From: an uncultured Pelagibacteraceae bacterium
GTDB lineage: Bacteria > Pseudomonadota > Alphaproteobacteria > Pelagibacterales > Pelagibacteraceae
Length of the DNA: 64,000 nt
Direction: 5' to 3'
Assembly (NCBI GenBank): GCA_902566785.1
Contig: CACFKI010000002.1
Coordinates: 51,795-115,794, forward strand
Shown: one piece after another, positions 34,168 to 46,830 of the stretch
How positions within the stretch are numbered: the stretch's first letter is position 1
How the letters are laid out: every line of letters starts with the position of its first letter
The notes under the pieces: generated by a model
Database searches by the model: none
What the model saw: the letters and a program-made list of their open reading frames with translations, nothing else
What the model was told of the DNA's origin: nothing
Made by a program: the position numbers and the translations under genes

Positions 34168-35695
34168 ATACTATATTACAACACCAATTTATTATCCCTC
34201 AGCAAAACCTCATATGGGGCATGCTTATTCGAGTATTATTGCTGATTTTTTTGCTAGATTTAAAAAAATATCTGGCAATGATGTATACTTTTTAACTGGT
34301 ACGGATGAACATGGTCAAAAAATTGAGCGCGCTGCAAAACAAAATAATAAAGAACCATTGACCTTTTGTGATGAAATTAGCCAAAACTTTAAAAATTTAT
34401 CTAAAACTTTAAATTTATCTAATAATGATTTTATAAGAACAACTGAACCTAGACATAAAAAAGCTGTTCAACATTTATGGAACATCCTTGAAAAAAAAGG
34501 TGAAATATATTTATCTAAATATTCAGGATGGTATTCAGTTTCTGATGAAGCTTTTTATACCGAAGATGAAATTGAAGAGGTTGACAATATTAAAAAATCA
34601 AAAGCCTCTGGATCATTGGTTGAATGGGTAGAGGAAGAGTCTTATTTTTTCAAATTATCTAATTGGCAGGACAAGCTATTAGAATTTTATGAAAAAAATA
34701 AAGAGTTTATATTACCAATTTCAAGAAGAAATGAAGTAATTAGTTTTGTTAAAAGCGGATTAAAGGATTTGTCTGTAAGTAGGAAGTCTTTCAAATGGGG
34801 AATAACTGTACCAACAAATGAAAATCATATTATTTACGTTTGGCTAGATGCATTGACTAATTATATTAGTGCATTAAATTATCCTGATACTTCACATAAT
34901 TTATATAAGAATTTTTGGCCAGCTAATTTACATGTAATTGGTAAAGACATTCTAAGATTTCACGCAGTTTATTGGCCTGCTTTTTTGTTGGCAGCGGATA
35001 TTAAACCGCCTTTAAGAGTTTATGGTCATGGATGGATTCTTGCGGGAGATGAAAAAATGTCAAAGTCTAAAGGTAATATACTTGATCCACTAGAGATAAT
35101 TGATAAATACGGTCTTGATCCTTTAAGATATTACTTAATTAAAGAGGTGTCTTTTGGCAATGATGGTAATATCTCAAAGGAAAAATTAGAAAACTGCATT
35201 AATAGTGATTTAGCTAATAATTTTGGTAACTTTATACAGAGAGTAGTATCTTTTAATGAAAAGAATATAGGATTAAAAATTCCTGAAAAAGGAAATTTTA
35301 ATAATAAAGATTTAAAAATACTTTCTGTTTTTGAGAAGGAATATAATAATTTAGTTAATTTTATAGACACTCAAAATTTGAATCTTTATATAAATTTTAT
35401 AGTGGATAATCTCTTTGCGGCTAATAAATATTTTAATGATGAAGAACCTTGGAATAAAAAGAATGATCTTAAACGATTGAATACTATTGTTTATGTAGCA
35501 CTAGAATTAATAAGAAAATTTGCTTTATTATTATATCCAATTACTCCAGATACCTCTTTAAAAGTTTTAAAAATTTTTAATATGAATGAAAATGATATAA
35601 ACCTCGCTACAATCAAAAATCATGAATTAAATAAAATAAATTCAAAAATAAACAAAATTGGAATATTATTTAAAAAAATAGATAAAAATGATTGA
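34157..35695 (+). CDS. metG: Methionyl-tRNA synthetase
   Basis: TTPIYYPSAKPHMGHAYS; KMSKSKGN. Confidence 0.95.
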   Translation: MKSKYYITTPIYYPSAKPHMGHAYSSIIADFFARFKKISGNDVYFLTGTDEHGQKIERAAKQNNKEPLTFCDEISQNFKNLSKTLNLSNNDFIRTTEPRHKKAVQHLWNILEKKGEIYLSKYSGWYSVSDEAFYTEDEIEEVDNIKKSKASGSLVEWVEEESYFFKLSNWQDKLLEFYEKNKEFILPISRRNEVISFVKSGLKDLSVSRKSFKWGITVPTNENHIIYVWLDALTNYISALNYPDTSHNLYKNFWPANLHVIGKDILRFHAVYWPAFLLAADIKPPLRVYGHGWILAGDEKMSKSKGNILDPLEIIDKYGLDPLRYYLIKEVSFGNDGNISKEKLENCINSDLANNFGNFIQRVVSFNEKNIGLKIPEKGNFNNKDLKILSVFEKEYNNLVNFIDTQNLNLYINFIVDNLFAANKYFNDEEPWNKKNDLKRLNTIVYVALELIRKFALLLYPITPDTSLKVLKIFNMNENDINLATIKNHELNKINSKINKIGILFKKIDKND

Positions 35696-41898: not shown

Positions 41899-41973
41899 GG
41901 TCCCTTCGTCTATCGGTTAGGACACATGGTTTTCATCCATGAAAGAGGGGTTCGATTCCCCTAGGGACCGCCA
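41899..41973 (+). tRNA. tRNA-Glu(UUC)
   Basis: GGTCCCTTCGTCTATCGGTTAGGACACATGGTTTTCATCCATGAAAGAGGGGTTCGATTCCCCTAGGGACCGCCA. Confidence 0.96.
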
Positions 41974-41975
41974 TA

Positions 41976-42224
41976 ATGACATATTTTGTTTATTTTATCA
42001 TTTCAAAGGTCAAAAAAAAAACAATTTCTTATGTTGGATATACCAACAATTTGGAAAGAAGATTAAAATTACATAATACCAATAAAGGAGCAAAATTTAC
42101 TAAAGGAAAAAAATGGAAATTGGCATATTATAAAACTTTTAAATCCAAAAAGGAAGCTATGAAACAAGAATACATATTGAAAAAAAACTTTAAATTAAGA
42201 AATCAATTAAAGGCTATAATTTGA
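41976..42224 (+). CDS. GIY-YIG nuclease family protein
   Basis: YFVYFIISK...SYVGYTNNLERRLKLHN...GAKFTKG. Confidence 0.9.
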   Translation: MTYFVYFIISKVKKKTISYVGYTNNLERRLKLHNTNKGAKFTKGKKWKLAYYKTFKSKKEAMKQEYILKKNFKLRNQLKAII

Positions 42225-45244: not shown

Positions 45245-46159
45245 TTATATTTTCAATTTATTTAATGCATTATTTTTAAATAAATTTGCTTCTTGAATAT
45301 ATCTTCTTACCATTTGAGATGTTTTATGACCTGTCATTGCCATAATGCTTCTTTCATCTGCACCAATTTCAGCTGTTGATGTAGCAAATCCAGATCTTAA
45401 ACTATGACCTGCGTATTTTGTTTTATCCAATCCAGCAAGTAGTGCATATTTTTGAATTGTTAAAGCTACTGTTTTATCGGATATATTGAATACTTTACCG
45501 TTATTAATTTTGGCATGTGTAATCCATTCTTTTAATGAAATAACAGGACAAAAGATTTTATTTTCGAAGTAGGGGATTGCCTTAGTCATACCAAGGCCAA
45601 TTTGGTCTGTCTTTGACCTTCTTACCAATATTTTTACTCCTTCGTTGACAAAATCAATATCCTCATATTCAATTGATACTAATTCTGATCTTCTAAAGCC
45701 ACCAGCAAATCCAATTAGCAATAAAGCTCGATTTTGATATTTTTTATACTCATTTTTTTCTTGATCTATTGCATTAATAATTAATTTTAAATCGTTGATT
45801 AATAAAGGTTTTTTAGATATTTGTTTAACACCCATCCTTCTTTTTATTCCCATTAAATTTTCTGCAATGATTGGATGTTTTGTATCGATATAATGCCCTT
45901 TTAATCTATTAATAACTTTTATTGAGGCTAATCTTCGTTTTAAAGTGCTAAATTTACTAAAAGCGCTTAAATGAGTTAGGTATAAAGCTATAATTTTTGT
46001 ATCACTTGGCATTGATGTAAAACCATTTTTTATACAGAAATTTGAAAAATCTTTGAAATCAGATTTATAAGCTCTTAATGTATTATTTGCTTTAGAATTT
46101 CTTAAATTCTTTAAAGTTTCTAATTCAAGGTTTTTAACATCTGTTATTAGTTCATTCAT
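45245..46159 (-). CDS. Tyrosine-type site-specific recombinase/integrase, apparently intact
   Basis: GFAGGFRRSEL (catalytic R), HSLRSGFATS (HxLR), MTGHKTSQMVRRYIQ (H and Y); SAM-like N-terminal core-binding domain. Confidence 0.93.
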   Translation of the reverse strand: MNELITDVKNLELETLKNLRNSKANNTLRAYKSDFKDFSNFCIKNGFTSMPSDTKIIALYLTHLSAFSKFSTLKRRLASIKVINRLKGHYIDTKHPIIAENLMGIKRRMGVKQISKKPLLINDLKLIINAIDQEKNEYKKYQNRALLLIGFAGGFRRSELVSIEYEDIDFVNEGVKILVRRSKTDQIGLGMTKAIPYFENKIFCPVISLKEWITHAKINNGKVFNISDKTVALTIQKYALLAGLDKTKYAGHSLRSGFATSTAEIGADERSIMAMTGHKTSQMVRRYIQEANLFKNNALNKLKI

Positions 46160-46163
46160 ATAT

Positions 46164-46192
46164 TTTTCCGATAACCATTAATTATCGGAAAA
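46164..46192. repeat. Perfect inverted repeat, 11-bp arms and 7-bp spacer, adjacent to recombinase start
   Basis: TTTTCCGATAA-CCATTAA-TTATCGGAAAA. Confidence 0.93.
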
Positions 46193-46238
46193 TAATATAA
46201 CACATTTTAAATGTCAAGAAATAAAATATATAAAGATA

Positions 46239-46549: not shown

Positions 46550-46639
46550 TTTTTATTAACACTATTCACAGGTGTGAAAAAGTCCACATTTTCAACAATA
46601 AAGTGATAACATTTAAAAAGGTACTTTGATAAGGTCTTA

Positions 46640-46830
46640 AATGAATTAAGAGGCAACTCTTAACTGACCGACTAAGGAAAAATCGAGAGATTCAAGCTTA
46701 GGGGGCAGAAAACTCTGCGGAGTAGCGCTAAAATCGTAGGGTGGAAGGCATGGCGGTAGCGCATACAACGACGTGCCAAAAACTACTGTTCTTTGTGCCT
46801 GAAAAGGTACAAGGAAACAGGGTTTTTATT
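46640..46830 (+). ncRNA. Unassigned structured RNA candidate with terminal intrinsic terminator
   Basis: GC-enriched segment with serial hairpins: TTAAGAG-GCAA-CTCTTAA (46646-46663); CTAAG..AATC-GAGA-GATT..CTTAG (46672-46701); GCAGA-AAAC-TCTGC (46705-46718); GCGCTA...TAGCGC (46725-46762); then a terminator. Confidence 0.65.
46778..46827 (+). terminator. Rho-independent terminator of the structured RNA
   Basis: AAAAAC-ta-CTGTTCTTTGTGCC-tgaaaa-GGTACAAGG-a-AACAG-g-GTTTTT. Confidence 0.8.

Follow-up and report, generated by a model that had tools for sequence, protein, structure and literature searches.

The 64,000-nucleotide stretch of DNA analysed here (hereafter the window) very probably contains a chromosome-dimer resolution module of SAR11 bacteria, in which a single Xer-type recombinase is encoded beside a dif-like terminus site. 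SAR11 rank with Earth's most abundant bacteria. The first-pass annotation had guessed at a self-contained dif/lox-like site with its own recombinase, maybe resolving replicons. This guess is strongly supported by the conservation of the site, its terminus location, the status of the recombinase as sole Xer protein, the presence of FtsK with a gamma domain and the polarity of KOPS motifs.

The site and its recombinase gene

The features of the module and its surroundings are as follows:

45245..46159 (-): Xer-type tyrosine recombinase, 304 aa, intact open reading frame (PF00589, 7.5e-20; weak N-terminal SAM-like domain)
46164..46192 (-): putative dif-like site, 11-7-11; minus strand TTTTCCGATAA-TTAATGG-TTATCGGAAAA, plus strand TTTTCCGATAA-CCATTAA-TTATCGGAAAA
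46182-46192 and 46164-46174: arms of the site, around a 7-bp asymmetric centre at 46175-46181
46166..46190 (-): 25-bp conserved core, type A, TTCCGATAA-TTAATGG-TTATCGGAA
46189..46194 (-): presumed -10-like box, TATTTT (spacing 17 bp), which overlaps the site at its outer edge (read directly)
46212..46217 (-): -35-like TTGACA of the recombinase promoter (read directly; a consensus match only)
46639-46779 (+): IMES-2 RNA, 157.9 bits, 450 bp from the site

As annotated at first pass, the 11-bp arms are perfect and the 7-bp centre is asymmetric (46164-46192), and the recombinase is intact, with the motifs R, K, HxxR, H and Y visible in its translation. The gap between site and start codon was given as 5 bp and is actually 4 bp, because the ATG lies at 46159 (-). 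Perfect symmetry is by itself not beyond chance: palindromes with 11-bp arms number two in this AT-rich window and 0–2 (mean 0.6) in 20 dinucleotide shuffles. It is the conservation across orthologs that is beyond chance and gives the site its significance. The specific sequence occurs once in the window (0.01 copies expected at ≤3 mismatches) and once in the source genome (0.94 Mb, 58 contigs, ~78% complete). The first-pass annotation had proposed looking there for a second copy, and none was found in the 0.94 Mb searched; for a dif site this is no refutation, because the partner is expected on the sister chromosome. Searches with the exact or the 2-mismatch type-A pattern gave one site per chromosome; one genome (G271) has one extra 2-mismatch match, which is without the core spacer.

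The recombinase falls below the cut-offs of the XerC, XerD, XerS and XerA models. It scores 48.8 bits on the XerS model (NF003462, cut-off 267) and 67.1 bits on the archaeal XerA model (NF040815, cut-off 220), and so reaches neither. The length of the protein across SAR11 is 304–318 aa. Upstream of the gene, a TTGAC box is found at equal distance in orthologs, as an exception to the weakly conserved flanks, and TATATT or TATAAT occupies the -10 position in many of them.

Two further features lie in the same region. The IMES-2 RNA was considered as a part of the module and rejected, because among 19 loci scanned it is near the recombinase gene only in the window, L066 and L071 and is absent from the other 16. 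A small GIY-YIG endonuclease-like ORF (82 aa, 41899-42224 (+)) starts a few bases past a tRNA-Glu gene.

Conservation, terminus position and proposed mechanism

The recombinase is present in 150 of 197 genomes of the family, including 69 of the 77 high-quality ones, and is single-copy per genome (two rows of G034 are fragments). The gene was not detected in eight high-quality genomes, which may be due to assembly gaps or loss; an XerD-type protein was also not found in seven genomes lacking the recombinase. These absences count against the module reading. Neither protein was detected in six SAR11 genomes of high completeness (i.e. G012, G019, G028, G070, G172 and G176). The window comes from the Pelagibacteraceae (SAR11): named records that carry the module belong to the Pelagibacteraceae/Pelagibacterales, including Candidatus Pelagibacter ubique HTCC9565, and one module-bearing record is entered merely as 'Alpha proteobacterium SCGC AAA288-G21'.

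Conservation of the palindrome upstream of orthologous recombinases, on which the first-pass annotation had made its reading depend, was found in all 49 orthologs inspected, which were chosen by protein and not by site; the site lies ~6–20 bp from the recombinase start in each. A script assigned 33 of them to type A (TTCCGATAA-TTAATGG-TTATCGGAA) and 15 to type B (TACTANNGATAA-TTAAT(T/G)G-TTATCAATAGTA); in the 49th (L063) the start call is off and the site is visible by reading. The 9-7-9 core is invariant in the 33 type-A orthologs save for single spacer changes in two, positions flanking this core mostly carry 0.1–1.2 bits, and both types share a GATAA-7-TTATC inner frame. When 84,980 species genomes were scanned with the core pattern, at least 120 loci matched; among the 120 matches listed, a recombinase start lies within 60 bp in 118, and the remaining two loci run off contig ends. 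An order-wide 2-mismatch search also returned sites of the form TTGCGATAA-N7-TTATCGGCA in the sister family f2 (five of L032–L038), which were rejected as dif since they are coding and lie inside a 756-codon frame.

No protein in nine complete SAR11 genomes reaches the XerD cut-off (330 bits), and the module recombinase scores ~65–82 bits on that model. Six of the nine have no other PF00589 protein, and one further integrase-like gene apiece occurs in G009, G017 and G063. These chromosomes hence have one Xer-type recombinase and no XerC/XerD pair; the SAR11 system lacks both the two recombinases scoring as XerC and XerD and the 6-bp centre of XerC/XerD-dif. In the sister family, nine genomes have an XerD-grade protein (307–325 bits) and seven of these nine a second, XerC-grade one; the phylogenetic tree places the sampled proteins as XerD and XerC.

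The distance from dnaA to the site is 0.42–0.58 of the chromosome in 11 of 11 complete genomes. GC skew is mostly positive before the site and negative after it (G005 and G009), and the cumulative GC-skew maximum, computed within 80–140-kb stretches centred on the site, lies 0.6–3.7 kb away in 10 of 10 genomes (1.5 kb in the 64-kb window). The site is, in short, a ~30-bp palindromic, low-GC and non-coding sequence near the cumulative skew maximum. FtsK with a gamma domain is encoded in all nine complete SAR11 genomes. Across 11 genomes (1.6 Mb of oriented sequence), the E. coli KOPS motif GGGNAGGG occurs 26 times pointing toward the site and never away from it; the remaining octamers with this base composition, when pooled, point toward the site in 72% of cases. 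The probability of this polarity (26/26) is ~2e-4 if occurrences are independent, and relatedness of the genomes makes the value less extreme. The convergence of polar KOPS on the site, with a motif that is that of E. coli and may not be that of SAR11, together with FtsK-gamma, is supportive of dimer resolution.

We propose that the module would work as follows: (i) each sister site would take up two protomers on its inverted arms, which read TTCCGATAA or, for the second subclade, TACTANNGATAA; (ii) KOPS-guided FtsK would bring both terminus copies together at the septum and presumably activate the recombinase; (iii) strand exchange by four protomers would follow across the 7-bp TTAAT(G/T)G centre, at predicted cleavage positions; and (iv) a dimeric chromosome would be resolved into two monomers, dimer resolution being the phenotype expected of the module. 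Binding at the promoter-overlapping site would probably also dampen expression of the recombinase itself, since the site overlaps the predicted -10 box.

It is very unlikely that the site is solely an operator, at which the recombinase or another protein represses the gene and no recombination occurs. The site does overlap the predicted -10 box and, in every ortholog, lies shortly ahead of the start codon; the overlap leaves room for an operator role and counts against the module reading, as does a spacer conservation across species that exceeds what a dif centre would strictly require. However, an operator leaves unexplained the terminus location in 11 of 11 genomes, the KOPS polarity, the fixed 7-bp asymmetric centre and the occurrence of such sites in phages far from any recombinase homolog. 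The autoregulation put forward at first pass is thus plausible as a side effect, in view of the predicted -10 overlap, and is disfavoured as the sole role of the site. The same annotation had also raised an RNA hairpin, i.e. a structure in the 5' UTR controlling translation. In RNA, the two arms of type A could pair with each other, and the 3' arm holds GGAAAA, including the ribosome-binding sequence GGAA. Yet type-B sites lose GGAA, and their left arm varies (AAT, AAC, AGT or ATT) against a nearly fixed right arm, so that pairing breaks without compensation; the spacer, which would be the loop, is conserved, and the site is also found in phage intergenic regions. One-sided, uncompensated arm changes together with spacer conservation make a pure RNA hairpin scarcely credible.

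It is most unlikely as well that the pair belongs instead to a mobile element (prophage or integrative plasmid), as its integrase and attachment site, and serves to excise or invert a module. This reading draws on the plasmid-borne nature of the nearest relatives outside SAR11 and on homologous recombinases in some viral contigs, but it sits poorly with a recombinase that is family-wide, single-copy and monophyletic within SAR11, and with a site that is at the terminus wherever tested and occurs once per genome with no second site flanking a segment. The excision or inversion of a surface-glycan/ncRNA module suggested at first pass finds no support: there is one site per genome, the DNA next to it varies from genome to genome, and its partner should be found on the sister chromosome.

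Plasmid relatives and phage-borne sites

The SAR11 recombinases form one clade (SH-aLRT 99, by a quick method with long branches flagged), which is nested among plasmid, viral and scattered alphaproteobacterial recombinases and lies apart from XerC and XerD. Within SAR11 they group by site type (23 type-A rows, support 98; 13 type-B rows, support 88), and four basal rows are not resolved. The type-B genome G080 shares flanking DNA of up to 88% identity with G090, a type-A genome of the same genus, yet in the tree the G080 recombinase falls outside the type-A recombinases of that genus. Flank identity and tree placement together therefore suggest that the module of G080 was replaced in place.

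The best relatives outside SAR11 are plasmid genes (35–42% identity; 2,299 plasmid records at E ≤ 1e-5), and no close relative was found among named phages. These plasmid genes, annotated as 'site-specific integrase', occur in Alicyclobacillus, Paenibacillus, Sporosarcina, Methylobacterium, Sphingopyxis and other hosts; they differ from the SAR11 module in being plasmid-borne and in that the site is not always adjacent. GATAA-type palindromes lie ~50–900 bp upstream in five of the 12 plasmid loci inspected (A. acidocaldarius pAACI01, A. dauci, Sporosarcina, Runella and Methylomonas; L481, L483, L488, L489 and L492), which span several phyla; that of Alicyclobacillus acidocaldarius pAACI01 reads TGTCCGATAA-GTGATTG-TTATCGGACA. 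The plasmid recombinases and their palindromes are candidates for an uncharacterised plasmid resolution family. Four distant alphaproteobacterial homologs (L260, L262, L263 and L264) have a GATAA-type palindrome directly upstream. Three Alphaproteobacteria (G549, G405 and G601) retain XerC/XerD-type proteins alongside the homolog, which is consistent with an origin in accessory elements. It looks as if SAR11 recruited a plasmid-type recombinase and its site to replace XerC/XerD, the pair still present in the sister family.

Related sites are common in viral contigs. The core in its exact host form was found in 16 viral contigs that lack this recombinase, and the type-A frame with free spacer in at least 120; a scrambled palindrome of like design matched no viral contig. 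Contigs with type-A-like sites are found among L242–L257 and L322–L462. Among the 98 AT-rich site-bearing contigs, the type-A-like site lies within 1.5 kb of a terminase match in 84, a type-B-like partner lies within 60 bp of it in 30, and a recombinase homolog is absent from 96, the contigs being fragments. Those of 4–6 kb were considered as microviruses, which was rejected: they are pieces of tailed phages, because they encode terminase and portal. The spacers of the phage sites have a length of 7 bp and often read TTAAACG, TTAAATG or TTAATCG, compared with TTAAT(G/T)G in the host. In phage HTVC106P, which was isolated on HTCC7211, TTCCGATATTAATCGTTATCGGAA lies in the gap beside the terminase gene (L313, ~35411-35436). 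HTVC100P has only TTCCGATAA-TAAAGCG-TTATC, and the full site was not found in the stretches read of HTVC010P, HTVC034P, HTVC028P, HTVC203P, Skadi-4 and Lederberg. A related TerL is encoded in seven of 397 SAR11 genomes, and no phage-type site was found integrated near it in the ~4-kb loci around those seven matches. We read the phage sites as putative dif mimics, which may serve either as attP of the IMEX kind or in resolution of phage genomes.

A set of twelve viral contigs, ten of them GC-rich, carries a homolog of the SAR11 recombinase ~0.1–0.6 kb from a TTCCGATAA-N7-TTATCGGAA site (L342, L345, L349, L351, L356, L365, L366, L367, L388, L393, L396 and L397). Such contigs may represent a wider family of recombinases with sites.

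A broader scenario, which we offer tentatively and regard as rather doubtful in its entirety, is that SAR11 lost XerC/XerD and domesticated a plasmid resolution cassette, which split into two specificity types, A and B, each able to take the place of the other at the terminus. Abundant pelagiphages without a homologous recombinase would carry paired type-B-like and type-A dif mimics beside the terminase, usable with hosts of either type, and the turnover of A and B could be an arms race over chromosome-dimer resolution.

Comparison with known Xer/dif systems

Pelagibacter ubique was said to have no dif/Xer (Carnoy & Roten 2009, PMC2731167) and Pelagibacter is not mentioned by Kono et al. (2011). 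No later report on Xer/dif of SAR11 or pelagiphages was found in the open-access literature searched. If the module reading is true, the published view that dif/Xer was dropped by streamlining would be reversed: the function would have been kept with one gene and a 25-bp site, and a core chromosomal function would have been taken over by a plasmid-type recombinase. Common pelagiphages would also be predicted to engage the chromosome resolution of their hosts, and in this way to reach lysogeny or resolve their genomes with no integrase. The module could further serve in vitro studies as a minimal and portable Xer/dif pair, and draft SAR11 genomes as a terminus marker.

The SAR11 module appears to be a variant of the single-recombinase Xer/dif kind. 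It is placed as a distinct variant because it would work like XerS/difSL and XerH/difH yet fails the XerC, XerD, XerS and XerA models. XerS/difSL of streptococci and lactococci and XerH/difH of Helicobacter and Campylobacter likewise consist of one recombinase with a gene-adjacent site near the terminus, and are FtsK-linked in the studied cases (PMC5357621, PMC2731167). In contrast, XerS and XerH are 354–362 aa long, and the SAR11 site (9-7-9/11-7-11) has a 7-bp centre and other arms than difSL and difH; from XerH as a protein family, the SAR11 recombinase is set apart by its length (304–318 versus 354–362 aa). XerL/dif of the Legionellales, a one-recombinase system that surveys by homology had overlooked (Nicholson et al. 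2022, PMC9765430), resembles the SAR11 module, as compared by description only, in its near-perfect inverted dif arms and in having a mobile element with a dif mimic. However, XerL is a larger protein (catalytic Tyr387) encoded >400 kb from dif, whereas gene and site are adjacent in SAR11. XerC/XerD-dif, the system of most Proteobacteria including the sister family, shares with SAR11 the terminus site, ATAA/TTAT inner arms, FtsK-gamma and GGGNAGGG polarity, but has two recombinases and a 6-bp centre, compared with one recombinase on a separate branch and a 7-bp centre. Finally, the AT-rich marine phage contigs are like IMEX phages and elements that use the host Xer (e.g. CTXphi and LME-1) in that these contig fragments bear dif-like sites and no homolog of the SAR11 recombinase. 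They are unlike them in that the TerL loci of SAR11 genomes showed no copy integrated at dif, in that the spacer often differs from that of the host, and in that type-B-like and type-A sites are often paired.
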